Part shown: positions 21,888 through 55,791 of the stretch, in pieces
How the letters are laid out: every line of letters starts with the position of its first letter
Numbering within the stretch: position 1 is the first letter of the stretch
NCBI GenBank assembly: GCA_035546535.1
Contig: DASZWQ010000037.1
Location: 1-64,000 of the forward strand
DNA from: Pirellulales bacterium
GTDB taxonomy: Bacteria > Planctomycetota > Planctomycetia > Pirellulales > JACPPG01
Length of the DNA: 64,000 nt
Direction: 5' to 3'
The notes under the pieces: generated by a model
The model's input: the letters and a program-made list of their open reading frames with translations, nothing else
Told to the model about the DNA's origin: nothing
The model's database searches: none
Made by a program: the position numbers and the translations under genes

Positions 21888-22064
21888 CGGCTCGGGGCTT
21901 CACTCGTGGTCAGAGAAATCGAACGGCATTTGCCCTGATCGTGAGCAAGACAGCGGCGCCCTGCAAGTGGTTCGCAACCGCCCCCTTTGGCGGTCCGGGG
22001 ATTGGCGGACTACAATTGTGCCAGAGCGTCTAACCGGCCCAGTTCCCCGCCGCCAGCCAACCTC

Positions 22065-25000
22065 ATGCCGCCACGTTTTGCACGGTGTTTTCGGCGAGCC
22101 GTATGGGCGGCCTGCTGCGGCATGGCCGCGTGGGCCGTGCCTACGGCGCTCTACGCCGACGGTAACCGGCTCACGTATCTCGACGCGCAAGATCCCTATT
22201 ATGCCTCGCGCGATTTGCCGGTGCTGGCGACTCCGCAATGGATCGGCGAGCCGGGGGTCGAGGCCGTCGTCGTCCTGGCCATCGACGATATGCGCGGCCA
22301 CGACAAATGGGAAGCCTATCTGCGGCCCATTATCGAACGGCTGAAAAAAATCGACGGCCGCGCACCGGTCAGCATCATGACCAACGACGTGCGCCCCGAC
22401 GAACCGCACCTGCAGCAATGGCTGGCCGAAGGCCTGAGCCTGGAAACCCACACCAAGACGCACCCGTGCCCACTCTTGGCAAAGGGGGACCTGGCGGCGT
22501 CGAAAAAAACATTCGACGACTGTGTCGACCAAATGGCCGCTATCCCGCGCAGCAAGCCCGTGGCCTTCCGGATGCCGTGCTGCGATTCACTGAACACAGT
22601 CAGCCCGCGGTTTTTTAGCGAGATCTTCAACAGCACGACGCCGGCCGGAAACTACCTGGCGATCGACTCCTCGGTCTTTCAGTTGTTCACGGCCAACGAT
22701 CCGCGGTTGCCGCGCGACCGCGTGTTGGACGGCGGAGGTCGAGAGCGGTTTCGCCGCTATTTGCCGGCGGATCGGGCGTTCGTCAATCGCATCGACGATT
22801 ATCCCTATCCGTACGTGATCGGCCGCTTGTGTTGGGAATTCCCCTGCATCGTGCCGAGTGATTGGGAAAGTTTTCATCTGCAAGGCGCAAACAGTCCACG
22901 CCTGGTGGCGGATTTGCAAGCCGCCCTCGATTGCGCGGTCGCCAAGCAAGGCACGTTTACGCTCGTCTTTCATCCGCACGACTGGATCAAAAGCGAACAG
23001 ATCATCGAGTTGATCGACCATGCCGTATCGAAGCACGGCGGCAAGGTGAAGTTTTTGAATTTCCGCGAGGCGCTTGAGCGGCTCGAGAAAAACCTGCTAG
23101 GAGGTCAGTCGCTGCGGGCCGCCCCTCAAGGGGGCGACAACGGCGTCCGGCTCTTGGATCTCGATCAGGATCATTATCTGGACGTTGTCGTCGGCAACGA
23201 CAACTTGAAACAGACGCGGGTTTGGTCACCACAGTCGCAGCGCTGGATTGAAACCGAGTTTCCCTGCGAATTGATCGCGCGCGACAGCGCCGGCAACCAT
23301 CGCGACAGTTGCGCTCGCTTCGGCGTCGTCAGGCCTGACGGCGCGGCATCGGTGATCGTTGCTAACGACGCGCGCCGCGGCGCCTGGACCTTTCGCGACG
23401 GAGGGTGGAAACAGGACGACGCGCTCTTGGCCGGCTTATCGATCGTTCCTGCCGGCCGCCCGTCCGCTGACGCCTCGCCGGTCATGACCGGTGTCGGCGG
23501 TCGTGACCATGGCGTACGTCTGCGCGATCTGGACCGCGACGGGGTTTGCGAATTGATCGTTGGCAACGACAAGCAGCAAGCGATCTTCGGGTTCGACGCG
23601 AAGCAAAACGCCTGGCACCGATTGCCGTTTATACTGCCTGAGGGAACCGCGATCGTCGATGACCAGGGGCGCGACGCCGGCCTGCGGTTCGTCGATGTCG
23701 ATGAGGACGCCTACGACGACGTCGTTTTTTCCAACGACGATCGCTACAGCCTGGATCTGTTCCATTCGATCGGCACCGGCTGGTCGCGGCGCGTTCTGGT
23801 CGGCAAAGCCGGCGACAGCGCGGCCGCCATTCCGCGAATCGTTTCCGGCGGAACGAACAACGGAGCCTGGTTCGCTGCCGGACATATGTACGTCGTCAAC
23901 GAGCGTACGGACAAGATCAAGGAGCTTGTCGACCAGCGTTCGTTCGCCACGTGGCTGAAGGACATCGAGCCCGAGGCCAAATCGCCGGCGGCTTCGCTCC
24001 GCGCGTTGCGCGCGAGGCCCGGCTTTACCGTAGATCTGGTCGCCGCCGAACCACTACTGGTCGATCCGGTGGCGTTCGATTGGGGGCCGGACGGCCGGCT
24101 ATGGGTTGCCGAGATGCGCGACTATCCCACCGGCATGGATGCCGACGGCAAGCCCGGCGGCGTTATCAAATGCCTCGAAGACACCGACGAGGACGGCCAC
24201 TACGACCGCGCCACCGAATTCCTGACCGACGTTGCCTTTCCGAACGGCGTCAAGGTTTGGCGCAAAGGAATCATCGTCACCTGCGCGCCCGACATTTTGT
24301 ACGCCGAGGATACCGACGGCGACGGCCGCGCCGACGTGCGCGAAGTTTTGCTGCACGGCTTCGGTGAAGGGAACCAGCAGCATCGCGTGAATGGGCTGAC
24401 GTTCGGCCTCGACAATTGGCTGCACTGTGCCAATGGCGACAGCGGCGGGCAAATCGAATCGACGAAGACCGGCGACAAGGTGCCGCTGAGCTTCCGCGAT
24501 TTCCGTTTTCAGCCCGACGACGGTCGTATCGACTTATTGCTGGGTCAATCGCAGTTCACACGCGTGCGCGACGACGCCGGGAACTGGTTCGGCTGCTCGA
24601 ATAGCGAGCCCTTATACCAGTTCGTGCTCGAAGATCGTTACCTGCGCCGCAATCGGCAGGTGGCGGCGCCCAACGCGCGCATCGACGTTTCGGCGGCACC
24701 TGGCGCCGCGCCGGTTTTCCCGCTCAGCCGCACGCTGCCGCGATTCAACGACCTGAACGTCGTAAACCGCTTCACATCGGCTTGCGGCGCTACCGTCTAT
24801 CGCGACGACCTGTTCGGCGCCGGATTTATAGGCAACAGCTACGTTAGCGAGCCAGTTCACAACCTGGTACATCGCGAAGTGATGACCCGCGACGGAGTGC
24901 GCTACACCAGCCGGCGGGCGGACGACGAGCAACAGTCCGAGTTTCTGGCTTCGAGCGACAATTGGTTTCGCCCCACCATGCTGCGCACCGGGCCGGACGG

Positions 25001-27308
25001 GGCGCTGTGGGTGGCGGATATGTATCGCGCCGTGATCGAGCACCCCGAGTACATCCCCGTCGATTGGCAAAAGCGATTGAACCTGCGAGCCGGCGATGAC
25101 ATGGGACGCATCTATCGCGTCTACCCGGTCGATCGGCCGCCACGCAAATTCGCGCGGCTCGATCGGCTCGACATCGCCGGGCTGGTCGCGGCGCTTGTTA
25201 GTCCGAACGGTTGGCAGCGCGACATGGCGCAGCAGATGCTCGTCTGGCGCGATGACCGCGCGGCGGTCCCGCTCTTGAAGCAGCTGATCGTAAGCGAGCC
25301 CGTCAAGCCCGCAGAAAAGGACGCAGCATCGGGTCCTTCGACCAGCGTTCACGCTCTCGCGCGTGTGCACGCCCTATGTACGCTCGACGGGCTGCGGGCA
25401 ATCGACGAGGACGTTCTGTTGGCCGCGCTTGAAGACACGAACGCCACGGTGAGGCGTCATGCGATACGCCTTGCCGAACCGTGGTTCGCGCGCTCGCCGC
25501 TCGTGGCCAAATCCGTGCAACAACTGGCCGACGACACGAATGAAATGGTTCGCCTGCAACTCGCCTACAGCCTGGGCGAATGGGCCGATCCGCGCGCAGG
25601 CGAAACGCTGGGCGCCATGGCCGTGGCCGATCTGGACGACGTTTACATTTCGGCGGCGATCGTCAGCTCCATCGGCCGGCCGCAACTCGACGGCGTCGTG
25701 CAAGCAGTCCTCGCCAAGACGCAGGAAAAAGAACGGCCCGCCGAACTGCTGCAAAAACTATTGACGCTGGCCACGATGTTCGAAAATCATCGATCGCTCG
25801 TGTCACTCTTGGCGGCCGTGGCCGTGCCACAAGGCGCCGGGTATGCGGGCTGGCAAATCGATTCGTTGGCCGGCCTGCTCGACACGCTCGATCGCAAGAA
25901 CCTGTCGCTCGCCAAGTTTCGGAGCGATGCCGACGCGCACGTGCAGGCGGGTCTCGATCGGATTCGGCCGATGTTCGCTTGGGCGCGAGACACGGTCAAA
26001 AATGAGAAGGCCGCCGAGGCCGACCGGCTGGCGGCACTTGCGCTCCTGGCACGTGGCTTCGAGGATCAGCAGCAGGATATCGACCTCTTGGCGGGCCTGT
26101 TGACGCCGCGTTCAAGCGCGGAATTGCAGTCAGCGACCGTCGCCGCGCTTGCGCGGCTCGATGAGCCGCGCATTCCGACCGTGCTGTTGGCTGGGTGGAA
26201 AGGGTACGGCGCCGAGCTGCGCGGCCAGGTGCTCGATGCACTGCTGCGGCGCGAATCGTCGATCAACGCGTTGCTCGACAACGTCGATTCCGGCCAGATT
26301 CACGTGCAAGAGATCGACGCTTCGCGCCGGCAGCGCCTGCGCGAATATCGCGACAAAGACGTACACGCCCGCGTCGATAAATTGTTCGCCAGCGATACCG
26401 TCTCCAGTCGCCAGGCCATTATCGATCAATACCGGGCGGGCCTGGCAACGCCCGGCGATGCGACACGCGGAAAAGCGATCTTCAAGAAAACGTGTTCCGT
26501 GTGCCATCGTCTCGAAGACGTAGGCACGGCGGTCGGGCCAGACCTGGCCGCGCTTACCGATAAATCGAGCGCCGCCCTCTTGGTCGCGATCCTCGATCCG
26601 AATCGCGCCGTCGAAAGTAAATTCGTCAGCTACGCTGCCGTGACGACCGCGGGCCTGACGTACACGGGCATGCTTGCCGCGGAGACCGGCGCCAGCATCA
26701 CGCTTGTCGGTCAGGAGGGAAAGCAAACCACGATTTTGCGCTCCGACCTGGAAGAGCTGGCCGCGAGTGGCCGATCGCTCATGCCCGAGGGGATGGAAAA
26801 GGACATCCCGCCACGCGACTTCGCCGACTTAATCGCCTATCTTTCGGCTTTGCGTCCACCGCGCCGCGTGTTCGCGGGCAATGAACCGAAAGTCGTCGAG
26901 CCCGAAGGCTTTCGCGGCGAGTTCTGGCTGCTGGCGAGCGACTGTGAAATCTACGGCGACACGCTCGCCTACGAACCGGTCTACCGTAACCTCGGCATGT
27001 GGGGAAGCACGACCGATCACGCTGTATGGACTTTTGATGTCAAGAAAGCCGCCAAGTACGTCGTGCGCATTGATTATGCATGCGACGAAGCCGTGGCCGG
27101 CAATCCCTATCAATTGACCATCGGCGACACCGTGTTCGCGGGCAAGGTACCCAGCACCGGTAACTGGGACACGTATCGTCAGTTGAGCTTGGGACGCCTC
27201 TCGCTCAAGCCCGGCCGGTATCAGGTCGTGCTACGTCCCGACGGCGCAATCGCCGGCGCCTTGATGGATCTCAAGAGCGTGCGCATTACGCCCGTTGGAC
27301 CTGACTGA
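22065..27308 (+). CDS. Giant secreted protein: polysaccharide deacetylase + PVC-type dehydrogenase + HEAT + cytochrome c + CBM
   Basis: 1,747 residues from ATG 22065, with a signal peptide of about 31 residues. In order: a NodB-type deacetylase domain with AIDDM (D74, D75), HTKTHP (H129, H133) and RMPCCD (R169); FG-GAP-like repeats rich in Asp (VRLLDLDQDHYLDVVVGND and DVDEDAYDDVVFSND); a PVC-type membrane-bound dehydrogenase propeller (from about residue 645, PGFTVDLVAAEP); HEAT repeats (about 1060-1420); a single-haem cytochrome c with CSVCH at 1477-1481 and GPDLAAL; and a C-terminal carbohydrate-binding-like sandwich (about 1607-1747). The dehydrogenase-HEAT-haem part is a known planctomycete/Verrucomicrobia build. 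The N-terminal deacetylase is unusual. It acts outside the cytoplasm, presumably on glycans. The partner gene follows after 25 bp. Confidence 0.85.
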   Translation: MPPRFARCFRRAVWAACCGMAAWAVPTALYADGNRLTYLDAQDPYYASRDLPVLATPQWIGEPGVEAVVVLAIDDMRGHDKWEAYLRPIIERLKKIDGRAPVSIMTNDVRPDEPHLQQWLAEGLSLETHTKTHPCPLLAKGDLAASKKTFDDCVDQMAAIPRSKPVAFRMPCCDSLNTVSPRFFSEIFNSTTPAGNYLAIDSSVFQLFTANDPRLPRDRVLDGGGRERFRRYLPADRAFVNRIDDYPYPYVIGRLCWEFPCIVPSDWESFHLQGANSPRLVADLQAALDCAVAKQGTFTLVFHPHDWIKSEQIIELIDHAVSKHGGKVKFLNFREALERLEKNLLGGQSLRAAPQGGDNGVRLLDLDQDHYLDVVVGNDNLKQTRVWSPQSQRWIETEFPCELIARDSAGNHRDSCARFGVVRPDGAASVIVANDARRGAWTFRDGGWKQDDALLAGLSIVPAGRPSADASPVMTGVGGRDHGVRLRDLDRDGVCELIVGNDKQQAIFGFDAKQNAWHRLPFILPEGTAIVDDQGRDAGLRFVDVDEDAYDDVVFSNDDRYSLDLFHSIGTGWSRRVLVGKAGDSAAAIPRIVSGGTNNGAWFAAGHMYVVNERTDKIKELVDQRSFATWLKDIEPEAKSPAASLRALRARPGFTVDLVAAEPLLVDPVAFDWGPDGRLWVAEMRDYPTGMDADGKPGGVIKCLEDTDEDGHYDRATEFLTDVAFPNGVKVWRKGIIVTCAPDILYAEDTDGDGRADVREVLLHGFGEGNQQHRVNGLTFGLDNWLHCANGDSGGQIESTKTGDKVPLSFRDFRFQPDDGRIDLLLGQSQFTRVRDDAGNWFGCSNSEPLYQFVLEDRYLRRNRQVAAPNARIDVSAAPGAAPVFPLSRTLPRFNDLNVVNRFTSACGATVYRDDLFGAGFIGNSYVSEPVHNLVHREVMTRDGVRYTSRRADDEQQSEFLASSDNWFRPTMLRTGPDGALWVADMYRAVIEHPEYIPVDWQKRLNLRAGDDMGRIYRVYPVDRPPRKFARLDRLDIAGLVAALVSPNGWQRDMAQQMLVWRDDRAAVPLLKQLIVSEPVKPAEKDAASGPSTSVHALARVHALCTLDGLRAIDEDVLLAALEDTNATVRRHAIRLAEPWFARSPLVAKSVQQLADDTNEMVRLQLAYSLGEWADPRAGETLGAMAVADLDDVYISAAIVSSIGRPQLDGVVQAVLAKTQEKERPAELLQKLLTLATMFENHRSLVSLLAAVAVPQGAGYAGWQIDSLAGLLDTLDRKNLSLAKFRSDADAHVQAGLDRIRPMFAWARDTVKNEKAAEADRLAALALLARGFEDQQQDIDLLAGLLTPRSSAELQSATVAALARLDEPRIPTVLLAGWKGYGAELRGQVLDALLRRESSINALLDNVDSGQIHVQEIDASRRQRLREYRDKDVHARVDKLFASDTVSSRQAIIDQYRAGLATPGDATRGKAIFKKTCSVCHRLEDVGTAVGPDLAALTDKSSAALLVAILDPNRAVESKFVSYAAVTTAGLTYTGMLAAETGASITLVGQEGKQTTILRSDLEELAASGRSLMPEGMEKDIPPRDFADLIAYLSALRPPRRVFAGNEPKVVEPEGFRGEFWLLASDCEIYGDTLAYEPVYRNLGMWGSTTDHAVWTFDVKKAAKYVVRIDYACDEAVAGNPYQLTIGDTVFAGKVPSTGNWDTYRQLSLGRLSLKPGRYQVVLRPDGAIAGALMDLKSVRITPVGPD

Positions 27309-27333
27309 ATCGCAGCAGCACGGGCGGCAATTC

Positions 27334-30300
27334 ATGGCGCGAACATTTTGTCGTATTTCTGCGTCGCCGTTCACCATGGTCCGCGTCTCGTTCGTGCTTG
27401 CGCTCTTGCTCGGGCTGTGGTGCACGATCGCCTGCGCGAGCGCGGCCGGACCGGTTGACGAAGACGACGACGCGCCGCCGGAATTACCAGCCGGCTTGCG
27501 CGCGGAAATCACGGCCGCCGGTCGCACGATCTCCCGCATCGATCCCGAGCTGCGCTTTGATTGGACCGAGAGCCCCGTTGACCCGCGATTACCGCCCGGC
27601 GACTTCCTGGCGCAGTGGACGGGCAAGCTATCGGTGATCGCTCCAGGAGCGTATCGGTTGCACGTCCATGCCGACAGCGGAAGCATTCGCATCTCGCTCA
27701 AGGGCCAAACTCTCGTCGAAGAGTCAGTCGCTGCGCCGCGCTGGCTCGATAGCGAGCCGATCGAGCTGGAATATGGGCATCACGCGATCGCAATCGAATT
27801 TCGCGGACGAGCGCCGACCGCAAAGCTCGGCCTGTTCTGGTCAGGACCGCGATTTCGCCTCGAGCCGATCCCGCCACGCGCCTTATTGCACGAGCCGCAG
27901 GGCGCAGCGGAAGATCGGTTCGAGCAGGGCCGACTGCTCGTGCATGGGTTGCGCTGCGCGGCCTGCCATGAGATTCCCGATGCGCAGCCGGTGCCGCCCG
28001 CACCCTCGCTTGCCAAATTGAAGGGAAATATCGCGAGGTCGTGGCTGATGAATTGGATCGGCGGCGCGAGAAAGAGCACACCGGACGAGTCGCCACCTTC
28101 ATCCGATGCTAAAGCGGCGAACGAAGTCGCGCACTCAAGCAAAGTCGCCCCCAGTTCGGAGAGCCACCCGCTTCCGGCCATTGATGACGTCAAATTCCGC
28201 ATGCCGGGGCTGGGCCTGACACGCGAAGATGCCCGGCACATCGTGGCTTTCTTGCTCGAGGAAACAGGCGAGGCTGCAACGAAGCAGGACGAACAAGCGC
28301 AAGCAGCGGCCGCAAAGCTCGGCGACGCTGCGGCAGGCGAAACGCTCTTCGATTCGCTCGGTTGTCTCGGCTGCCACGCACTCAAGGGACTCGGTTCATC
28401 GCGGCTCAGCGGCGGAGGCGAGCTCACGAACATCGCCGACAAGCGGCCAGCGGACTTCTTCGAGCGTTGGCTGGCCGAACCGGCGAGCACGAATCCGACC
28501 CATCGCATGCCCGTATTCCCCCTCTCGACGGACGAACGACAGCAGTTGGCGGCGTACCTTGCCGGGCAGCATTCCAGCGTGCCCGCGGACGGCGTGCCGG
28601 CAGATCGGCGCGACTACGGCGGAGAGCAGAGTCGTGGGCGCGCGCTAGTCGCTACGCATCACTGCGGCGCGTGTCACGAGTTGCCAGCCCGCGGCGGCCA
28701 ACCGGCGCCCGAACCGGCGGCGATTCGTAAGCAGAAGATCGCCGCGGACGCTGATTGGGAAAAGAGCTGCGTCGGCGAGCCCGACCCGACGCTAACGCGC
28801 CCGGGCTATCGCTTGCGCGCGGAGCAGCGCGCGGCCGTAATTACCTACGTACGTGAAATGGCGCAGGGCCCCTCGACAACGGCGATCGCGTCAGCCCGGC
28901 TTGATGGCGCGCGCATCATGCAAGATCGCAACTGTCTTGGCTGCCATAGTCGTGGGCTGGCGCTTGGCATCGCGGCGCACACGCCCGGAGTGGCCGCGGC
29001 GCATCGGCCGCTGGCTGCGGCGCTTTCGACGCTCACGCCGCCAGCGCTCACGGACGTGGGTGACAAGCTCGAGCGCGCGGCGCTTGTCGAGGCGATGACG
29101 GTCGCCGGCGATCCGCGTCGCTCGTGGCTGAAGATCCGGATGCCGCGCTTCCGCTTCGCGCCCGGCGAGACCGAGGCGCTCGCCGATTGGCTGATCCGCA
29201 CTGATCGAATGCCTGATCGGCCGGTGCCTGAGTCGGAAACGCTTGCCGATGCATTACTAACGACCGCCGGAGGGCGACTGGTATCGGCCCAAGGGTTCGG
29301 CTGCGCAAGCTGCCATCAGATCGGCAAGTCGATTCCGAAGCAAGACAACCCGGCCGCGCGCGGTACTGATCTATCGCTCGTGGGGAAGCGCATTCGTCGC
29401 GAGTGGTTCGATCGCTGGGTGCGCAATCCGGCGCGCATCGTCCCGCGCATGGAAATGCCGGCCATCGAAATTCCGGCCGGCGGCGTCCTGAACGAACGGC
29501 TCGACGATCAACTTGCGGCCGTGTGGCACGTGCTCAATGAGCCGGGCTTCACTCCGCCGGCGGCCGCCGCGGTGCGCATAGTAAGCACGCGGAACATGCC
29601 GAACGAACCTGAGCCGGCCGCGATACTGACCGACGTGCTGCGCATCGAAAAGCGCGCTTATGTGCGACCCTTCGTTGTCGGGCTGGCGAACCGCCACACT
29701 GTGCTTTTGGATATGGAGCAGAACCGGCTGGCGGGCTGGTGGATCGGCGATGCGGCGCGCGAGCGAACCGAAGGAAAGCGTTGGTTTTGGGAGCCCGGCG
29801 GGACGCACCTGCTCGCGCCGAGGCGCCTAGGGACCCGCGAGCTCGTGCTCAAGCGCGACGGACAAACCATCGCGCCGGTCGCGGCGCCGCAATTCGTAGC
29901 GCTCGTCGACTCCTGGCAACACGTCGAGGGGGGCGTGTCAGTCGATTACCGGCTGACGTTCCCCACGGACGGCGACGAGTCGCCGCTCACCGTCCACGTG
30001 TCGCAGCGCGTGACCGCGATTGCCGCCAACAACAATTCCGGTCATGCCGGCTTCGAACGCCGCTTGGAAATTCGCGGCGTGCCCGAGGGTACCGAGATCG
30101 TCTGGCGGCCGCTCGACGAGGGAACAACCGGGACGATGACGAGAAACCAATATGTGGCGACAGGCGGTCCGGCGGGCGACCTGTTTTTGACGATACTCCG
30201 ACCTGAAAGCGCAACCATCGGCGACAATTCGGGCCCGACGATCACCCTCGCTTCGGCGGGCGCGGATGTGCCGCTCATCACCGCTGTGGAATACCGCAGT

Positions 30301-31767
30301 CAATTGGCGGCGGACCGCGTGCCGGCGCCCGCCGCCGCGGTGGCGCAATCTCGCCCGGCGGTCCCTTTGCACTGCGTGCCGGGCTTCGAAGCGGTGCGCT
30401 TGCCTTTACCGGCGAGCGAAATGCCCACTGGTTTTGCGTGGCGGGCCGACGGAACTCTCATGTTCACGTCTCTCAAGGGGGGCGCGTGGCTCGCGCCCGA
30501 TACCGACGGCGACGGGCTGGCCGACACGTTGCGCCCGCTAGCCGACGAGTTGGCCGCTCCGTATGGGCTGTTGGCGCGCGGGGATGGCACGGTGGACGTC
30601 AGCAATAAAAATGGCCTGCTGCGGCTCTCCGACTTTGATGCTCAGGGGCGCGCGCGCCGCGCCGATGTGGTGGCCGATGGCTGGGGACACACGGCCGATT
30701 ATCACGATTGGGTCGTGGGCCCGGTGAGCGACGGCGCGAGCGGATATTATCTGGCACTTCCCTGTCGACAAGACGAGCGGGACGACGCCGCGGCGCGCTG
30801 GCGCGGCTGGTCGCTCCACCTCGTTCCCCGGAATCCAACTAGTGACAATCCTCGCCGCTACGAACTCGTCCCTTTCTGCTCGGGCTTGCGCTTTCCCATG
30901 GGGCTCGCGCGCAAACCGGACGGCGCGCTTTTCGCCACCGACAACCAAGGACATTACAACCCTTACAACGAACTGAATCATTTGACCGCCGGCGCGCACT
31001 ATGGCTTCATGAACAAGAGCGAGGCGCGGAAAGGCACGGCGCTGCCACGGCAGGACGCGGCCATCGAAATACCGCATCCCTGGACGCGCAGCGTAAACGG
31101 CATCTGTTTTCTGACCACGCCCGAGAGCGTGCGCGCCGCGACAGGTCACGCCGCGTTCGGCCCTTGGGAGGGGCACCTCGTCGGTTGCGAATACGACACC
31201 AGGCGCCTGGTGCGCATGAGCCTGGAGCGGATCGGCGACGTGTATCAAGGCGCTGCCTATCCCCTGAGCAGCGAGCCGGCCGAGGGGGAAGAAACGTTCG
31301 AGGGGCCGATCGCGTGCGGGGTGGCGCCCGACGGCTGGCTCTACATCGGCAACATGCGCGACAGCGGCTGGGGGGCAGGTCAGAACACCGGATCGATCGT
31401 GCGCTTACGCCCGCGTGGTTCGTTGCCATCGGGAATCGCCGAGGTGCGCGCGGCGGCAAGCGGCTTCACTATCCTCTTCACGCAAGAAGTCGACACGGCC
31501 GCCGCAGGCAATGTGGCAAACTACGTCGTCGAGTCGTTCCGCCGCGTCACGACGTCCGACTACGGCGGCCCCGACGTCGACCGGCGGACCGAGGTGATTC
31601 GCTCAGCCAATGTGTCAAGCGACCGGCGCTCGGTGCGGCTTGCCCTCGATTCGTTGCGGCCGGGCTTTGTCTACGAATTTCATCTTCAAAACATGGCCGC
31701 GGCAGGAAAGCTGTTTTTTCCGGGCGAAGCCTACTACACGCTGCGGGTCGTGCCCACGGAGAATTGA
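27334..31767 (+). CDS. Secreted PA14 + five-haem cytochrome c + propeller-like protein
   Basis: About 1,477 residues. The hydrophobic signal sequence is VSFVLALLLGLWCTIACASA; starts at 27334 or 27376 both keep it. A PA14-like sandwich (about residues 35-160, WTGKLSVIAPGAYRLHVHADSGS) is followed by five CxxCH haem sites at 208, 344, 444, 534 and 657 (CAACH, CLGCH, CGACH, CLGCH, CASCH). The C-terminal half (about 1010-1470) resembles the sorbosone-dehydrogenase propeller with Asp-rich turns (DTDGDGLADTLRPL) and an Ig-like end. Together with the upstream gene it probably forms an extracytoplasmic sugar-oxidation system passing electrons through haems. No pyrroloquinoline quinone ligand could be assigned. 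Confidence 0.8.
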   Translation: MARTFCRISASPFTMVRVSFVLALLLGLWCTIACASAAGPVDEDDDAPPELPAGLRAEITAAGRTISRIDPELRFDWTESPVDPRLPPGDFLAQWTGKLSVIAPGAYRLHVHADSGSIRISLKGQTLVEESVAAPRWLDSEPIELEYGHHAIAIEFRGRAPTAKLGLFWSGPRFRLEPIPPRALLHEPQGAAEDRFEQGRLLVHGLRCAACHEIPDAQPVPPAPSLAKLKGNIARSWLMNWIGGARKSTPDESPPSSDAKAANEVAHSSKVAPSSESHPLPAIDDVKFRMPGLGLTREDARHIVAFLLEETGEAATKQDEQAQAAAAKLGDAAAGETLFDSLGCLGCHALKGLGSSRLSGGGELTNIADKRPADFFERWLAEPASTNPTHRMPVFPLSTDERQQLAAYLAGQHSSVPADGVPADRRDYGGEQSRGRALVATHHCGACHELPARGGQPAPEPAAIRKQKIAADADWEKSCVGEPDPTLTRPGYRLRAEQRAAVITYVREMAQGPSTTAIASARLDGARIMQDRNCLGCHSRGLALGIAAHTPGVAAAHRPLAAALSTLTPPALTDVGDKLERAALVEAMTVAGDPRRSWLKIRMPRFRFAPGETEALADWLIRTDRMPDRPVPESETLADALLTTAGGRLVSAQGFGCASCHQIGKSIPKQDNPAARGTDLSLVGKRIRREWFDRWVRNPARIVPRMEMPAIEIPAGGVLNERLDDQLAAVWHVLNEPGFTPPAAAAVRIVSTRNMPNEPEPAAILTDVLRIEKRAYVRPFVVGLANRHTVLLDMEQNRLAGWWIGDAARERTEGKRWFWEPGGTHLLAPRRLGTRELVLKRDGQTIAPVAAPQFVALVDSWQHVEGGVSVDYRLTFPTDGDESPLTVHVSQRVTAIAANNNSGHAGFERRLEIRGVPEGTEIVWRPLDEGTTGTMTRNQYVATGGPAGDLFLTILRPESATIGDNSGPTITLASAGADVPLITAVEYRSQLAADRVPAPAAAVAQSRPAVPLHCVPGFEAVRLPLPASEMPTGFAWRADGTLMFTSLKGGAWLAPDTDGDGLADTLRPLADELAAPYGLLARGDGTVDVSNKNGLLRLSDFDAQGRARRADVVADGWGHTADYHDWVVGPVSDGASGYYLALPCRQDERDDAAARWRGWSLHLVPRNPTSDNPRRYELVPFCSGLRFPMGLARKPDGALFATDNQGHYNPYNELNHLTAGAHYGFMNKSEARKGTALPRQDAAIEIPHPWTRSVNGICFLTTPESVRAATGHAAFGPWEGHLVGCEYDTRRLVRMSLERIGDVYQGAAYPLSSEPAEGEETFEGPIACGVAPDGWLYIGNMRDSGWGAGQNTGSIVRLRPRGSLPSGIAEVRAAASGFTILFTQEVDTAAAGNVANYVVESFRRVTTSDYGGPDVDRRTEVIRSANVSSDRRSVRLALDSLRPGFVYEFHLQNMAAAGKLFFPGEAYYTLRVVPTEN

Positions 31768-39799: not shown

Positions 39800-39830
39800 T
39801 GAAAGTTCGACTTGGTTGTTCGACTTTCAG
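39800..39830. terminator. Imperfect hairpin after the secreted repeat protein
   Basis: GAAAGT at 39801-39806 pairs with ACTTTC at 39824-39829, and the stem continues as a CGA-type pairing with single bulges. It stands 65 bases after the stop of the upstream gene and has no T run. A weak candidate. Confidence 0.3.
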
Positions 39831-40003
39831 GACACTCGGGCGACGCTCGCGAACCCGGTGAACTCCTGATACGATTGACAGAGGAGAGGCATCGGCGTTT
39901 CGAGCGCTCTCTCCGCGCTTATCACCTTCAAACACTCAACACGCGGCCCGGCGCCTTTATCTCGGCGCGTCGAGCGGCCAATTCTCTTCCGGGCGGTAAC
40001 CGC

Positions 40004-42919
40004 GTGACGAATCCCAGTACGGCAGACGGTTCAAGGCCGCGAGCTATGTTCTGCCCGCTTTTGCTTGCTCTGCTTCTGCTGTCGCCCCCGATCACGGCTG
40101 CCGCCGACCAGACTGTAACGCCCAAGTCGAAACCCACCACGGCGTCCAAGAAGCCGGACCAGCCGACGGATACCAAGAAACGTCCGGCCAGCGGAACGGA
40201 CGCCAAGGATCCCTCCCAAGTGGCGGCCCTCGTTCAGCGTGCGGATGCACTGCTCGGTTCGAGTTCTTTTGCCGCGGCGGTGAAGGAATATGAGGCTGCG
40301 CTTGCCCTGTGCGATCCGAAGCACCCGCGGCCCGCGACAACCGCACTTATTCAATCGCGCCTGTCGGCGGCCTTGGCTTTCGTGGCCGATTACGCCCGCG
40401 CGCGAACGTTCGCCGAGCAGGCGGTGGCCAATTTCATAACGGCCTTTGGTCCTGCCAGTGCCGAAGCGGCCGTAGCGCTGACGGATTACGGCGTGCTCCT
40501 CACGAAACTCGGCGAATTATCCGCGGCGCGGTCGAGTTTCGAGCGCGCGCTCCAGATCATGCAGCAGTTGCACGGAGAGCGCAATCCAAAAACACTCGGC
40601 TTGCGCACCTCGCTGGCGGCCCTCCAGGGGGCCTTGGGCGACCGGGCCGCGGCCACCCAGGGATTCGAAGAAGCGTTGCTCATTCAGAGCAAGTACGCAG
40701 CCGAAGAAAATGCCGACACCGCGTTCCTGCACGTCGAATACGGCAACTTCCTGACAAACCAGGGCAAATATCGCGAGGCGCGCGAACAACTGGAGCTCGC
40801 GCTCTCGTTGCGGCGCAAGTTACTAGGCGACCGTAATCCGGTTACGGCCGGCACGCTCGATTCGCTGGGAAGGGTCTGCCACCTTCTCGGTGACGACCCA
40901 CGGGCGCAAGCGTGCTTCGAGGAAGAACTGGGCATCTACAAGGAGGTGCCGCCAGCGGATCATGGGGACTTGATCAACGCGCTAAACAACCTGGGCTTTG
41001 TTCTCGGTTGCCAACAGCAATACGCCCCGGCCCTGGAAGTTTTCCGCCAGGCGTTGGCCGTGGGAAAGCAATCGTTTGGGGACAACGATCCGCACGCGGT
41101 GACCGGCTACACGAACTTGTCCCTGTTTAGTGCCGCACAGGACGATTGGCAGCGCGCTGTCGAATTCGCGGACGAGGGACGGCATCTCGCCCGTCGCCGT
41201 CTGGCCACAACGCTTTCGACACTCTCCGAGCGCGAGCAGCTCGCTTATCTTTCCACTCACGATCTCCCTGCGCATTTCATGGCCCTTTCCTTGGCCATCG
41301 AACTGCGGCGCCACCCGCGCGTGGCCGAGTTGTCGGCCGGCTGGCTGTTGAACGGCAAATCGCAATCGCAGGAACTGCTGGCCGATCGCGCGGTCCGGGC
41401 GCGCGAACAGAGTGATCCGGCTCTGGCCAGAATCTCGCAGCAACTGAAGCAGGTGCGCGACGAGCAGGCGAAGATCGTCTTTTCCGGCACCTCGCGCAAC
41501 GAGCGGGGCGATCGGATCTCGAAACTGGCGCGAAGCGAAGAGGAGCTTTCGCGGCGGCTGGCCCGGGCCGGCAGCCACTCTTTGCAAGCCCTGGACTGGA
41601 TCGACGTCGGGCAGGTTCGTTCCGCGTTGGCCCCTGGCGAAGTCCTCGTCGATATCGCCTGCGTGCCGCTCGTGAATCTGAAGGCCCCCGACGAAAAGAC
41701 CAGCTCTCTGCACTATGCGGCCTGGATCGTGCCGTCGGCCGACCAGGGCGAGGTGAAACTGATTGATCTGGGGGACGCCGAAGACATTCACGAGGACATC
41801 CTCGAGCTGCGCAAAGCCATCAATGTGGTCTTCACGATCGACCGCAGCACCGGACTGACGAAACCTGCTGAACCGAAGACATTGACGCAGGCGCACACCG
41901 CCATGTTGCGGTTGTCGCAGCGATTGCTGTTTCCGCTGCTTTCGCAGATTCGCAACGCCGACAAGCTGCTCATCAGCCCCGATGCGCAGTTGTGGCTCGT
42001 TCCCTGGGCCGCGCTCTACCTGCCCGACGGACGATTTGCCGTCGAGCAATATCAAATCTCGCACCTGGTCAGTGGCCGCGAACTGCTGGCGCCGAAGGTG
42101 AAGCGGCCGTCGAATGCGCCGTTGATCGTGGCGAACCCGAATTTTGATCTGCTGCCCGCCGAGGCACGGCAGATCGCTCAGGCCACGCTGACGGGCAAGA
42201 AGATTCCCGCGCAGCCGCGGCCGAACATACGCCTCCGGCCGCCGGCGCGGCTGGGCACGCCGCTTCCGGAGCTCGCCAGGCAAGTGAAGGTGGTCGGGCC
42301 GAAGCTGGCCGCCTACGCGGGAAAGAAACCGGCTGTCTTCGAAGGGGATAGGGCTCTGGAAACCCTGGTCAAAGCCGTACACGGACCAAGGGTGGTCCTG
42401 TTTGCGACGCACGGCTTCTTTGAGCCATCGGACCTGGCTTTCCGCGCGCGCACTTCGGGATTGGGCGCTGATGCGAGAGCACCGCGAACGGCCGATAACC
42501 CGCTGTTGCGCTGCGGCGTGTTGTTGGCCGGCTGCAATTGGCGAGATTCCTCGAAGGGAGACGATGGAATCTTGACGGGCATGGAAATCCTGAGCCTGGA
42601 TCTCCGCGGCACGGAGCTCGTCGTCTTGAGCGCCTGCAACACCGGGGTGGGCGATCTGCGAATCGGCGAAGGAGTGGCGAGCACCCGCCAGGCCTTTCAA
42701 CTGGCCGGCGCCGAGGCCGTCGTAGCGACCCTCTGGCCCGTGACCGTCGACGAAGCCAACGATCAGATGAGCGATTTCTTCGCGCGCCTCGCCAAGGGAG
42801 AAGGGAAGGCACAAGCCCTGCGCAGCGCCCAACTAGCGGCCATCAGCCGGCTGAAGGCCAAGTATCACGCTGCGCTCCCGGTCATTTGGGCAGCCTTCAC
42901 AATCACCGGACGCGGCTGA
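40004..42919 (+). CDS. Secreted TPR-CHAT protease-like protein
   Basis: 971 residues from GTG 40004; ATG 40046 is an alternative starting directly at the hydrophobic stretch FCPLLLALLLLSPPITAAA. A Lys/Pro/Thr-rich linker leads to about seven TPRs (residues about 85-430, including ALTDYGVLLTKLGELSAARSSFERALQIM). The C-terminal CHAT domain (about 560-970) has the caspase-like dyad His803 (FATHGFFE) and Cys878 (LSACNTGVGD), followed by the usual EGVASTRQAFQLAGAEAVVATLWPV and WAAFTITG end. CHAT proteins are peptidases, often in defence or cell-death systems. A signal sequence makes an envelope role more likely here. Confidence 0.85.
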   Translation: MTNPSTADGSRPRAMFCPLLLALLLLSPPITAAADQTVTPKSKPTTASKKPDQPTDTKKRPASGTDAKDPSQVAALVQRADALLGSSSFAAAVKEYEAALALCDPKHPRPATTALIQSRLSAALAFVADYARARTFAEQAVANFITAFGPASAEAAVALTDYGVLLTKLGELSAARSSFERALQIMQQLHGERNPKTLGLRTSLAALQGALGDRAAATQGFEEALLIQSKYAAEENADTAFLHVEYGNFLTNQGKYREAREQLELALSLRRKLLGDRNPVTAGTLDSLGRVCHLLGDDPRAQACFEEELGIYKEVPPADHGDLINALNNLGFVLGCQQQYAPALEVFRQALAVGKQSFGDNDPHAVTGYTNLSLFSAAQDDWQRAVEFADEGRHLARRRLATTLSTLSEREQLAYLSTHDLPAHFMALSLAIELRRHPRVAELSAGWLLNGKSQSQELLADRAVRAREQSDPALARISQQLKQVRDEQAKIVFSGTSRNERGDRISKLARSEEELSRRLARAGSHSLQALDWIDVGQVRSALAPGEVLVDIACVPLVNLKAPDEKTSSLHYAAWIVPSADQGEVKLIDLGDAEDIHEDILELRKAINVVFTIDRSTGLTKPAEPKTLTQAHTAMLRLSQRLLFPLLSQIRNADKLLISPDAQLWLVPWAALYLPDGRFAVEQYQISHLVSGRELLAPKVKRPSNAPLIVANPNFDLLPAEARQIAQATLTGKKIPAQPRPNIRLRPPARLGTPLPELARQVKVVGPKLAAYAGKKPAVFEGDRALETLVKAVHGPRVVLFATHGFFEPSDLAFRARTSGLGADARAPRTADNPLLRCGVLLAGCNWRDSSKGDDGILTGMEILSLDLRGTELVVLSACNTGVGDLRIGEGVASTRQAFQLAGAEAVVATLWPVTVDEANDQMSDFFARLAKGEGKAQALRSAQLAAISRLKAKYHAALPVIWAAFTITGRG

Positions 42920-44757: not shown

Positions 44758-47289
44758 GTGATTGCTGGGTCACGATTTGGGGTGCATTCTGCGGCGGCGT
44801 TCTTCGCCCTGCCCCTTTGCGTAGCACTTGGTGTGGCATCTTCGGTCCGCGCGCAACAACCACCAGCTGGGCCTGCTGCCGGGTCGGCCATTTCCACGCG
44901 CACGATCGACGGTAAGTATCTGCCACCGCAGCCGGCGCCTTTCGGCGGCGTGATCAACATGAACGCGGTCAATTCAAAGCCGTGGTGGCCGTCGAGCGTG
45001 GTCCCTCCCAAGGGCGCGCCGAACGTGCTGTTGATCATGACCGACGACGTCGGCTTCGGCGCGCCGAGCACCTTCGGCGGCGTCATCCCCACGCCCTCTT
45101 TGGACCGCGTTGCCAAGATGGGATTGCGCTACACGCAGTTTCATTCGACCGCGCTCTGCTCGCCCACGCGGGCGGCCCTGATTACGGGCCGCAACCATCA
45201 TTCGGTCGGTTTCGGCGTCGTCGCGGAAATGGCCACCGGTTTTCCCGGCTACGACACGTTCATCGGTCGCGATTCGGCCACGCTTGGTCGTGTTCTGCGA
45301 GACAACGGCTACGCCACGAGCTGGTTCGGCAAGGATCACAACACGCCCGCCTTCCAGGCCAGCCAGGTTGGCCCCTTCGATCAATGGCCGATCGGGATGG
45401 GCTTTGATTACTTCTATGGCTTTGTCGGCGGCGACACCAGCCAATGGCAACCCAACTTGTTCCGCAATACGACGGCCATCTATCCGTACGTGGGTAATCC
45501 CCAGTGGAACCTCACGACCGCCATGGCCGACGAAGCGATCGCGCATTTGAAGATGCTCAACGAGGTCGCGCCCGACAAGCCGTTCTTTTGCTACTACGTC
45601 CCTGGCGGCACGCACGCGCCCCACCATGCCACGCCCGAGTGGATCGAGAAATTCAAGGGCAAGTTCGACATGGGATGGAACAAGCTGCGCGATCAGATTT
45701 TCGCGAACCAGAAAAAGCTCGGCGTGATCCCGGCCGATGCGAAATTGACGCCCTGGCCCGATGTCCTGAAAAAGTGGGACGATCTTTCGGCCGAGGAGAA
45801 GAAGCTGTTCACCCGGCAAGTCGAAGTGTACGCGGCCTACCTGGCGTACACGGATCATGAAATCGGTCGCGTCATTCAAGCCGTCGAGGACTTGGGCAAG
45901 CTCGATAACACGCTCGTCATCTACATCAGCGGAGACAACGGCGGCAGTGCCGAAGGATCTCCGATCGGCACGCCGAATGAGGTCGCGCAGTTCAACGGGG
46001 TCGAGGTTCCGGTACCGGCGCAACTGGCGCTGTTCTACGATTCCTGGGGTTCGGACAAGACGTACAACCATATGGCCGTCGGGTGGACCTGGGCCTTCGA
46101 TACGCCCTTCCAATGGACCAAGCAGGTCGCTTCGCACTTTGGCGGCACGCGGCAAGGCGTGTGCATTGCCTGGCCCAAGCGGATCAAGGATGCCGGCGGA
46201 ATTCGTAACCAGTTTCATCACATCGTCGATATCACGCCAACGATCCTCGAAGCAACCGGCATCCCGGCGCCGAATGTGGTCGATGGCATTGCACAGCGTC
46301 CGATCGAAGGCGTGAGCATGGCGTATTCGTTCGACAAGACCAGGGCGCAAGCCCCTTCGCCGCACAAAACGCAATACTTCGAAATGCTCGGCAATCGGGG
46401 CATCTATCACGATGGCTGGTACGCCAATACCGTGCCCATCAGCCCGCCCTGGGTCCTTACAGCGACGCCCGATCAGGACGTTATGAGCAGCTACAAGTGG
46501 GAGCTCTACGACCTGACGAAGGATTGGACGCAGAGCAACAACCTGGCCGCGAGCAAGCCTGATAAGCTCAAGGAATTGCAAGAGAAATTCATCGTCGAGG
46601 CGACGAAGTACCAGGTTTTCCCGCTCGACAATTCCATGGCGGCCCGCATGATCTCGCCGCGCCCCAGCCTGACCGCAGGACGCGACACGTTCACCTACAG
46701 CGGCGAACTGACGGGCATTCCGATGGGGGCCGCGCCGTCGCTGCTCAACGCCTCGTACAAAATCACGGCTGATATTGAAATCCCTGCGGGCGGCGCCGAA
46801 GGCGTGCTGGCCACGCAAGGAGGCCGATTCGGCGGCTGGGGTTTTTACCTCTTGAAGGGGAAGCCGGTCTTCCTGTGGAACATGCTCGACCTGCGCCGTA
46901 TCCGCTGGGAAGGAAATTCAGCACTCGCCCCCGGTAAGCACACCTTGGAGTTCGCCTTCAAATACGAAGGACTGGGCGCCGAAACGCTGGCTTTCAACAA
47001 TCGCAGCGGCCTCGGCCACGGCGGCCCCGGCACGCTGAAGGTGGATGGGCAGGTCGTCTCGTCGCATAAGATGGAGCACTCGATCCCCGTCACTTTGCAA
47101 TGGGACGAAAGCTTCGACATCGGGGCCGATACCGGCACGCCGATTGACGACAAGGACTATCAGGTCCCCTTCAAGTTCACGGGCAAGCTCACGAGCTTGA
47201 CGCTAAAGATCGACCGCCCCCAGCTGAGTCCGGCCGACCAAAAACGACTGGCCGAGGAAAGCCGTCGGAATAATCGGGCCAGTGAATAG
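44758..47289 (+). CDS. Secreted arylsulfatase (formylglycine-dependent)
   Basis: 843 residues from GTG 44758, with GAAAGGAG upstream and a signal peptide to about A34. Sulfatase motif CSPTR at 134-138 (C134 is the residue that becomes formylglycine), in ALCSPTRAALITGRNHHSVG. Metal ligands are seen in LLIMTDDVGFGAPSTFGG and ISGDNGGSAEGSP. The C-terminal part (about 640-840) is a beta-sandwich extension. The sequence matches the large Asl-type arylsulfatases of about 750-850 residues. It cleaves sulfate esters, probably from algal polysaccharides. No maturase (FGE) gene is in the window. A tandem repeat and the ceramidase-like gene follow. Confidence 0.9.
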   Translation: MIAGSRFGVHSAAAFFALPLCVALGVASSVRAQQPPAGPAAGSAISTRTIDGKYLPPQPAPFGGVINMNAVNSKPWWPSSVVPPKGAPNVLLIMTDDVGFGAPSTFGGVIPTPSLDRVAKMGLRYTQFHSTALCSPTRAALITGRNHHSVGFGVVAEMATGFPGYDTFIGRDSATLGRVLRDNGYATSWFGKDHNTPAFQASQVGPFDQWPIGMGFDYFYGFVGGDTSQWQPNLFRNTTAIYPYVGNPQWNLTTAMADEAIAHLKMLNEVAPDKPFFCYYVPGGTHAPHHATPEWIEKFKGKFDMGWNKLRDQIFANQKKLGVIPADAKLTPWPDVLKKWDDLSAEEKKLFTRQVEVYAAYLAYTDHEIGRVIQAVEDLGKLDNTLVIYISGDNGGSAEGSPIGTPNEVAQFNGVEVPVPAQLALFYDSWGSDKTYNHMAVGWTWAFDTPFQWTKQVASHFGGTRQGVCIAWPKRIKDAGGIRNQFHHIVDITPTILEATGIPAPNVVDGIAQRPIEGVSMAYSFDKTRAQAPSPHKTQYFEMLGNRGIYHDGWYANTVPISPPWVLTATPDQDVMSSYKWELYDLTKDWTQSNNLAASKPDKLKELQEKFIVEATKYQVFPLDNSMAARMISPRPSLTAGRDTFTYSGELTGIPMGAAPSLLNASYKITADIEIPAGGAEGVLATQGGRFGGWGFYLLKGKPVFLWNMLDLRRIRWEGNSALAPGKHTLEFAFKYEGLGAETLAFNNRSGLGHGGPGTLKVDGQVVSSHKMEHSIPVTLQWDESFDIGADTGTPIDDKDYQVPFKFTGKLTSLTLKIDRPQLSPADQKRLAEESRRNNRASE

Positions 47290-47504
47290 TCCGCAGGCCC
47301 CCAAAAGGGTCGGTATCTCCCGGCACGTCGAAAAAGGGCGAAACTCAGGCCTCGCTCAGGCGGTATCGGTAGCGTGACGATTCGCAATGTCATCGGCTAG
47401 TGATGAGTGCCAGGCACTGCGATAATTGGAACCGCACTGGCCGGCCCATCATGCGCGCCGGCGCTCGTCCGAATTCCGTGATTGTCCATCGCCGATTGTT
47501 CGCC

Positions 47505-47594
47505 GCATGATTGTCCGCTGCATCACTGTCCACTGCATGACCGTCCACTGCATGACCGTCCACTGCATGACCGTCCACTGCATGACCGTCCACC
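47505..47594. repeat. 15-bp tandem repeat upstream of ceramidase gene
   Basis: Six head-to-tail copies of a 15-bp unit (GCATGACCGTCCACT). The last four copies (47535-47594) are identical but for the final base, and the first two (47505-47534) have decayed. Still weaker remnants lie before 47505. It ends 13 bases before the ATG at 47608. Being a multiple of 3, it keeps an open MTVHC reading on the plus strand. The rest of 47290-47504 shows nothing I can name. Confidence 0.9.
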
Positions 47595-47607
47595 TTGAGA
47601 ACGCACC

Positions 47608-54601: not shown

Positions 54602-54642
54602 GTTCTTGACCATCCCTTGTGTGTTTTGCAGAAGCCGCCTGC

Positions 54643-55791
54643 TTAGAATCCCAGCGAGCGGCCGATGACTTCTTTCATGATCTCGTTGGTGCCGGCGAAG
54701 ATCGTGGCGGCACGCGAGTCGATGTACGCCTTGGCGATCGGGTATTCGAGCATGTAGCCGTATCCACCGTGGAGTTGCAGGCATTGATCGACGACGCGCT
54801 TCTGCACGTCAGTCGTCCACCACTTCGCCATGCAGGCCTCGACCGGCGAGATGTTGCCGGCGTTGTGCTCGGTAAGGCAGCGGTCGACGAACACGCGGGC
54901 GATTTCGATCTCGGTCTTCATCTCGGCCAGTTTGAAGCGCGAGTTCTGAAACGTCCCGATCGGGCGGCCAAAGGCCTTGCGCTCCATGCAGTAGCGCGTC
55001 GTCCACTCGAAGGCGGCCTCGGCCGAGGCCACGGCGCCGACAGCCAAAATCAGGCGCTCTTGCGCCAGGTTTTCCATCAAGTAGTAGAAGCCGTGCCCTT
55101 CCTGCCCGAGCAGGTTTTCGCGCGGCACGTGAACATCGTTGAAGAACAGCTCGGCGGTATCCTGGGCGTGCATGCCCATCTTGTTCAGGCGGCGGCCGCG
55201 TTCGTAACCCGGCATGCCGCGCTCGATCACAACGAGGGACAATCCCTCGTGCGAACCCTGCTCCTTGGGCGCGGTCTTGACCGCGACGATCACCGCATCG
55301 TTCATGATGCCATTAGTGATAAACGTCTTGCTGCCGTTGACGATATATCCGTCGCCGTTCGGCGCGGCCGTGGTTTGAATCGCCGCCAGGTCGCTGCCGG
55401 TATTCGGTTCGGTCATGGCGATGGCCCAGATGCAATCGCCCTGCACCATCGGGGGAAACCAGCGTTTCTTTTGTTCTTCGGTGCCGAGGCGCAACAAGTA
55501 CGGCAGCACGATATCGGTGTGCAGCGGGAAACCCGGCCCTGTCGCGCCGACCCGCGCCAGCTCCTCGGTGACGATGGCGTTGAAGCGAAAGTCGTTGGTG
55601 CCAACGCCGCCGTACTCCTCGGGCACGGCCATGCACAGGAATCCGTACTCCCCCGCTTTCTTCCACACATCGCGCGAGACTTCGCCATCCTGCTCCCACT
55701 GTTCGTGGTGCGGCACGATGTCTTCCGCGACGAAGCGGCGAAACGAGTCGCGAAACAGGGCGTGCTGTTGCTCGAAAATATTTCGGTTCAT
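54643..55791 (-). CDS. Acyl-CoA dehydrogenase, long-chain/branched-chain type
   Basis: 382 residues from ATG 55791, overlapping the ligase stop by 4 bases (ATGA). Full acyl-CoA dehydrogenase fold with FAD-binding WAIAMTEPNTGSD and the QLHGGYGYMLEYPIAKAYIDSR end. The usual MCAD catalytic Glu position reads IFAGTNEIM (Ala), while a Glu sits in the helix before ERKAFGRP (AFEWTTRYCMERKAFG), as in LCAD and isovaleryl-CoA dehydrogenases. This points to long or branched acyl chains. FAD-linked first oxidation step of the cluster. An electron-transfer flavoprotein is not in the window. Confidence 0.9.
   Translation of the reverse strand: MNRNIFEQQHALFRDSFRRFVAEDIVPHHEQWEQDGEVSRDVWKKAGEYGFLCMAVPEEYGGVGTNDFRFNAIVTEELARVGATGPGFPLHTDIVLPYLLRLGTEEQKKRWFPPMVQGDCIWAIAMTEPNTGSDLAAIQTTAAPNGDGYIVNGSKTFITNGIMNDAVIVAVKTAPKEQGSHEGLSLVVIERGMPGYERGRRLNKMGMHAQDTAELFFNDVHVPRENLLGQEGHGFYYLMENLAQERLILAVGAVASAEAAFEWTTRYCMERKAFGRPIGTFQNSRFKLAEMKTEIEIARVFVDRCLTEHNAGNISPVEACMAKWWTTDVQKRVVDQCLQLHGGYGYMLEYPIAKAYIDSRAATIFAGTNEIMKEVIGRSLGF

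Follow-up and report, generated by a model that had tools for sequence, protein, structure and literature searches.

A predicted NodB deacetylase fused to a PVC-type haem dehydrogenase, and its five-haem neighbour, in a Pirellulales bacterium

Results

Organization of the gene pair

The window analysed here is a 64,000-nucleotide stretch of a Pirellulales bacterium contig, and two large genes lie side by side on its + strand. P1 (22065..27308; best start ATG 22065, open frame 21987-27308) encodes 1747 amino acids, and P2 (27334..31767; best start ATG 27334, open frame 27295-31767) encodes 1477, with P2 residues numbered from position 27337. The genes are separated by 25 bp. Both products are predicted to be exported, and P1 starts with a signal peptide, judged by eye: MPPRFARCFRRAVWAACCGMAAWAVPTALYA. 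As originally predicted, P1 combines NodB, FG-GAP, PVC dehydrogenase, HEAT, single-haem, and CBM regions, of which the CBM stays weak, and P2 carries PA14, five CxxCH motifs, and a propeller-like end, which matches GSDH/DUF7133. P1 has one CxxCH motif and P2 exactly five. The giant fusion gene and its five-haem neighbour are confirmed as real. The neighbouring genes scanned encode GNAT, phosphodiesterase, TPM, TPR, and amidohydrolase proteins; among them we found no glycan-degradation cluster and no porin of the kind that, with surface cytochrome genes, makes up a porin-multihaem conduit for extracellular electron transfer.

The front domain of P1

The NodB/CE4 domain spans residues 30-345 (22152..23099, + strand). 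The complete deacetylase site that had been claimed is present, with all five CE4 motifs kept: Asp-Asp (D74 D75), HxxxH (H129/H133), RxP (R169/P171), DW (D266-W267), and the catalytic His (H303). These residues are invariant or nearly so in two alignments of 56 and 41 rows. On the single P1 sequence, PF01522 scores 16.3-19.7 bits, under its gathering score of 23.1, which is a convenience threshold and not a biological criterion; at E<=0.1 the same model is found in 22 of 24 family members (best 9.9e-7). A family profile of the domain matches PdaC (E=8e-6) and PgdA, both peptidoglycan deacetylases, placing the P1 domain as a divergent member of the CE4/NodB family.

Structure prediction agrees. 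The model of residues 29-627, covering NodB and FG-GAP, has a mean pLDDT of 93, and its NodB domain matches CE4 folds with Z 15-21, the highest being 3rxz (Z 21.0, rmsd 3.4, 246 residues aligned). Judged by motifs and model together, the front domain of P1 is a CE4 fold with a complete deacetylase site, and deacetylase activity is predicted. It shares the fold, five motifs, and metal triad of CE4/NodB deacetylases (PdaC, PgdA, 3rxz, and the PuuE-type fold), at about 300 residues; identity to the closest structures is low, about 12-14%. Unlike PdaC, PgdA, and 3rxz, it is fused to an FG-GAP region and a haem dehydrogenase.

Remaining domains of P1 and P2

Behind the deacetylase lies an FG-GAP beta-propeller (residues 350-625; 23112..23939, + strand), sub-threshold in Pfam on the single sequence and predicted as a beta-propeller in the model. 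Its Foldseek matches include the GlcNAc-binding lectins PVL and AAL2, and integrins; because the propeller fold is common, we did not take the lectin likeness as proof of ligand. The PVC dehydrogenase propeller follows (residues 640-1022; 23982..25130, + strand), matching DUF7133 (E=2.5e-154, Pfam) and TIGR02604 (E=2.5e-79, NCBIfam; 267.3 bits, cut-off 122.2). A HEAT-repeat region (residues 1090-1455; 25332..26429, + strand), with HEAT_2 at 1116-1199 (E=1.8e-8) and conserved in relatives, leads to a mono-haem c domain (residues 1464-1594; 26454..26846, + strand) with CSVCH at 1477. This domain matches TIGR02603 (E=2.2e-32; 111.9 bits, cut-off 68.15), and CxxCH occurs in 48/48 fused proteins that have it. 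With both TIGR02604 (Piru_Ver_Nterm) and TIGR02603 over their cut-offs, P1 belongs with the PVC-type haem-binding CxxCH proteins. The C-terminal CBM6-like domain (residues 1646-1742; 27000..27290, + strand) is sub-threshold, and the best relative reaches E=4.2e-4 for CBM_6, also under the cut-off; a homologous domain is found in most planctomycete fusions and is absent from several.

P2 opens with a PA14 domain (27526..27852, + strand; Pfam, E=7.3e-7), followed by five CxxCH sites at residues 207, 343, 443, 533, and 656 (27955..29316, + strand); several cytochrome c domains match in P2 (E=1.6e-24, Pfam/NCBIfam). Exactly five CxxCH motifs occur in all 25 two-gene P2 orthologues examined. The middle domain (residues 760-1010; 29614..30366, + strand) has no Pfam match and is conserved in orthologues. 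Last comes a predicted GSDH-type six-blade propeller (residues 1055-1340; 30499..31356, + strand), which matches the GSDH profile with E=2e-11 over 292 columns. On the single sequence, the GSDH- and DUF7133-like matches are sub-threshold (4.4e-4 and 5.9e-6), and a single-sequence search with the propeller gave no match. In the P2 alignment the counterpart of the GSDH catalytic His, in the motif YHDW, is nearly invariant.

Planctomycete-specific cytochromes combined with CBM_6 and PA14 (PSCyt/PSD architectures) have been described (PMC5615132). Compared with the architectures consulted there, P1 has an N-terminal NodB-FG-GAP module in addition.

Distribution of the fusion

Among 392 sampled Planctomycetota genomes, 28 carry the NodB-dehydrogenase fusion, which is also present in Verrucomicrobiota. 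It forms one open frame with the same domain order in about 50 loci, single-contig genomes included, and in the source contig of 90846 bases the join is internal. A sequencing or assembly join, for which we found no point in favour, is next to impossible given these loci, and we rejected it. Neither of the two refuting conditions set originally holds: other genomes show the fusion, and the deacetylase domain is predicted to adopt a CE4 fold. A search of openly accessible papers found none naming a NodB-PVC dehydrogenase fusion.

Across 46 fused rows, NodB and dehydrogenase distances are correlated (Spearman 0.67; 0/300 permutations as high), which indicates that the two modules have travelled together. 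This correlation and the persistence of the fusion across two phyla argue against two functions tethered merely for location, with NodB trimming one polymer (e.g., peptidoglycan or an amino-sugar matrix) and the dehydrogenase oxidising a different small substrate. We consider such a division of labour unlikely, although several relatives have the core without NodB, three loci have NodB-FG-GAP without the dehydrogenase core, and the best NodB sequence matches are peptidoglycan deacetylases.

Linkage of P1 and P2

P1 and P2 are adjacent in all four readable genomes of the genus and in one genome of another family. A core without the deacetylase lies with P2 in four more genomes and, as split frames, in a fifth. 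In one relative, G420, the deacetylase-less core and P2 form a single 2462-residue, six-haem polypeptide, with the P2 leader and the CBM both missing at the join. This chain indicates that the pairing is more than chance. That P2 is unrelated to P1 and adjacent by accident would fit its absence beside most fusions, but the pair conserved in two families, the linkage of unfused core and P2, and the G420 chain make this very improbable, and we rejected it. The six-haem set originally proposed, one haem in P1 and five in P2, likewise finds its counterpart in G420.

The unfused cores and the G420 chain imply that dehydrogenase and five-haem protein belong together and that the deacetylase is optional. 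P2 is missing beside most NodB fusions, P1 is likewise missing beside most P2 genes, and several P2 partners have no deacetylase, so the earlier picture of a deacetylase in one fixed machine with P2 went too far. On sequence grounds, the dehydrogenase and five-haem core is the common unit, to which the deacetylase has been added as a front module that can be exchanged.

GSDH likeness of the propellers

Using a deeper alignment, the P1 propeller matched the GSDH profile over its full length but weakly (E=1.5e-5); HHalign with a narrow alignment covered only the last two blades, Pfam GSDH fell below cut-off on single sequences, and a profile search against PDB gave no match. Its model has a pLDDT of 80, with a poor loop at 208-277. 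The P1 and P2 propellers are clearly homologous to each other (profile match E=2e-16). In the alignment, H773 of P1 falls on the catalytic His of GSDH (His144 in sGDH), and this position is His in 50/50 NodB fusions, whereas five other PVC dehydrogenases sampled from the genus, four of them from the same genome as P1, lack it.

The full PQQ-binding set (Arg228, Asn229, Lys377, Arg406, Arg408) is incomplete in both proteins, and we therefore did not file either as a PQQ enzyme. P1 keeps neither the Lys377 nor the Arg408 position, only the His144-like residue and an Arg406-like R969; P2 keeps an Arg228-like Arg and has Phe in place of Asn229. A search for PqqC-like genes found none in the P1 genome or the 11 genomes closest to it, and across 199 Planctomycetota just 5 weak matches, all under the cut-off; in the PqqE search, radical-SAM proteins matched everywhere. 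We know of no PVC dehydrogenase with an established activity or cofactor. With a GSDH-like propeller and His on one side, and on the other a PQQ site that lacks several ligands and a PqqC search that found no clear match, sugar oxidation as originally proposed was overstated.

The same gaps suit a P1 in which NodB is the sole enzyme, the two propellers form a glycan- or protein-binding scaffold, and the haems have a different redox task. The catalytic His is absent from other PVC-family propellers, and FG-GAP and CBM regions fit binding. We regard this as rather unlikely: the His is kept throughout the NodB fusions and missing from paralogues, the P2 propeller is nearer to true GSDH, and every core has a haem fused to it, which points to electron flow.

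Discussion

From the original prediction, the deacetylase site, the genuine fusion, and the six-haem set stand, while the extracellular site, sugar oxidation, and the fixed machine are unsupported or overstated. Placement outside the cell claimed too much, as only export signals are visible and the planctomycete periplasm is as likely a destination. Our favoured, still tentative, reading is that P1 and P2 are both exported, most likely to the periplasm, and work as a pair in oxidative glycan processing: they would de-N-acetylate a glycan, oxidise it, and pass electrons to haems. The FG-GAP propeller and CBM6-like end would hold an N-acetylated (or O-acetylated) glycan, from which the metal-dependent NodB/CE4 domain, to judge from its motifs and fold, would strip acetyl groups. 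The GSDH-like PVC propeller, with H773 as base, could then oxidise the exposed sugar with a putative cofactor, a role to which homology and the conserved His point. Electrons would flow to the P1 c-haem and on to the five P2 c-haems, as haem motifs and gene linkage suggest, and the P2 PA14 domain and second GSDH-like propeller may make additional contacts with the glycan or oxidise at a second site.

A works-like model is the Coprinopsis AA12 PQQ-dependent pyranose dehydrogenase (AA8 cytochrome b, AA12 propeller, CBM1), a known propeller-cytochrome-CBM precedent (PMC6881789, PMC4332668). In this secreted enzyme a six-blade sugar dehydrogenase is joined to a cytochrome and a CBM, the layout proposed for P1, and the equivalent of its catalytic His is kept in P1. 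Unlike the AA12 enzyme, P1 and P2 have c-type and not b-type haem, PQQ ligands are only partly kept, a deacetylase is added in P1, and there is a five-haem partner.

A hydrolase with a complete catalytic site welded to a PVC dehydrogenase offers a concrete substrate clue, namely an acetylated, probably amino-sugar, glycan. The clue concerns a family of giant cytochrome-dehydrogenases, known since the Rhodopirellula genome, of which PVC bacteria have many (25 TIGR02604 match segments in the P1 genome alone). The single-chain G420 version and the conserved His provide direct testable constructs for this family.

Three PVC dehydrogenases (L176, L188, L190) have the same dehydrogenase-HEAT-haem core with a different hydrolase in front, a neutral ceramidase (Ceramidase_alk) where P1 has NodB. 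Such interchangeable amidases, NodB or ceramidase-like, on one GSDH-like haem dehydrogenase core could reflect a PVC-wide strategy of de-N-acylation followed by oxidation, which we hold to be distinctly unlikely. Freeing the amine would turn the sugar or sphingoid into a substrate that is oxidised directly, perhaps through some cofactor that is not PQQ, and feeds a six-haem wire; if true, aminoglycans could be respired with no need of glycoside hydrolases. Compared with other PVC-type CxxCH proteins, P1 retains the GSDH-like His at 773; its equivalent is missing in L176-L178 and kept in L188 and L190.

Results and Discussion

Two neighboring forward-strand genes, separated by 25 bp, encode P1 (ATG at 22065 to 27308), a 1747-aa NodB-FG-GAP-PVC dehydrogenase-HEAT-heme protein, and P2 (ATG at 27334 to 31767), a 1477-aa five-heme protein. 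Each starts with what by eye is a Sec-type leader, and no lipobox was seen by eye in either leader. Domain scans bore out the originally predicted domains. P1 matched the PVC dehydrogenase (TIGR02604/DUF7133) very strongly, the TIGR02603 heme domain strongly, HEAT, and, weakly, NodB, FG-GAP, and a CBM6-like C-terminal end; P2 matched PA14, repeated cytochrome c, and a GSDH-like propeller. The predicted heme count also stood, with one CxxCH site in P1 and five in P2.

Because the NodB domain of P1, as a single sequence, scored below the Pfam cut-off, we examined it further by alignment, family profile, and structural model. Columns invariant over 56 aligned relatives include D74 D75, H129, H133, R169, P171, D266, and H303, which together make up, in sequence order, the five CE4 motifs. 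The NodB family profile matched Bacillus subtilis PdaC (E=8e-6) and, weakly, Streptococcus pneumoniae PgdA (E=0.008). An AlphaFold model of residues 29 to 627 (mean pLDDT of 93) matched CE4/NodB structures with Z up to 21, and its second domain resembles FG-GAP-type propellers, including fungal GlcNAc lectins and integrins. The invariant motifs and predicted CE4/NodB fold thus agree with the complete deacetylase site originally proposed.

The NodB-PVC dehydrogenase fusion is genuine and conserved. Searching other genomes, the check proposed at the outset, gave NodB matches in 28 of 392 Planctomycetota genomes and also in Verrucomicrobiota, such as Chthoniobacter flavus. NodB, FG-GAP, dehydrogenase, HEAT, and heme form a single open frame in nearly all matches, single-contig genomes included, and NodB divergence tracks dehydrogenase divergence (Spearman 0.67; 0/300 permutations). 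The C. flavus draft fusion (L047, near 11150) has an apparent frame shift inside FG-GAP. NodB-FG-GAP also occurs as a stand-alone two-domain protein (L076, L173, and L174), the window's genus (G394) included. Our literature search found no paper describing the fusion, which is apparently undescribed.

In the dehydrogenase-core tree, fused proteins are spread over the whole clade, with several switches between fused and unfused forms (13 changes over five labels in a quick tree without bootstrap). This distribution fits an early NodB fusion, after which the front module, the domain N-terminal to the dehydrogenase-HEAT-heme core, was repeatedly lost or swapped; the same switches may instead record repeated gain. 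In relatives of the core, Ceramidase_alk lies above the Pfam cut-off N-terminal to the core at L176, L188, and L190, and by similarity to these three, on which Pfam was run, a neutral-ceramidase-like domain takes the place of NodB at L177, L178, and L189. NodB and ceramidase alike cut N-acyl amides. On this basis, a speculative and rather unlikely reading is that they would be interchangeable de-N-acylating modules acting before oxidation, in a general "de-N-acylate, then oxidize" strategy with exchangeable amidases.

Within the genus, P1 precedes P2 in each of the four genomes with sufficient contig (L137, L138, L139, and the window); the same order occurs in G414, from another family (L182, where the contig end cuts NodB). 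In G369, G438, G399, and G405, an unfused dehydrogenase-HEAT-heme-CBM gene lies immediately 5' of P2, and G430 has a split version of the unfused core with P2. In G420 (L180:6615-14000), the core and the entire P2, with its PA14, five hemes, and GSDH-like propeller, form one 2462-aa frame with six CxxCH sites; the P2 leader and P1 CBM are absent from the join, which is therefore more than simple stop-codon loss. Exactly five CxxCH sites occur in 25/25 two-gene P2 orthologues. However, most fusions have no adjacent P2, and P1 is likewise missing next to most P2 genes. The originally predicted pairing is thus supported for the core and P2, but the deacetylase is an optional attachment rather than a fixed part.

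The alignment of the P2 propeller to GSDH spans 292 columns (E=2e-11), and the P2 propeller also aligned with that of P1 (E=2e-16; 2e-20 with a deeper set); the P1 propeller itself aligned weakly with GSDH (1.5e-5). P1 H773 aligns with the GSDH catalytic histidine, His144 of sGDH, whose AA12 counterpart is His363 (PMC6881789). This residue is His in 50/50 NodB-fused rows, whereas the five further PVC dehydrogenases that were sampled in the genus (four of them in the window's genome) have Gly or Leu there. P1 R969 aligns with Arg406, but the P1 propeller conserves neither Lys377 nor Arg408. PqqC was not found in the window's genome, despite its 25 TIGR02604 match segments (about 18 to 20 proteins), or in its 11 nearest relatives. 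Across 199 genomes, PqqC gave only five matches, all weak and sub-cut-off; the best, in G097, indicates that the search can give a signal. E. coli acquires PQQ from outside. An oxidoreductase role is therefore likely by homology, but with PQQ ligands only partly conserved and PqqC not found, PQQ is a doubtful cofactor unless acquired externally. Deacetylation coupled with such an oxidation is plausible.

The proteins had been placed outside the cell, but we saw no sign of a cell-surface location. A periplasmic site suits equally, since the periplasm of planctomycetes is enlarged and receives imported dextran (PMC5394234). Neither a porin nor a PUL-like cluster was found among the genes flanking P1-P2. 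Multidomain PSCyt/PSD cytochromes with CBMs are reported in PVC bacteria by PMC5615132, which gives their functions as unknown.

Elsewhere, the window encodes a sulfatase and, after it, a neutral/alkaline ceramidase that is complete, having both its N- and C-terminal domains (44758-49683), and a 1035-aa TPR and CHAT-domain protein with a caspase-like protease fold (39812-42919). A Multifunctional protein-2-like fusion of short-chain dehydrogenase, MFE-2 hydratase/MaoC, and SCP-2 (51986-54784) lies near an AMP-binding ligase, in a layout resembling a peroxisome-like beta-oxidation enzyme.
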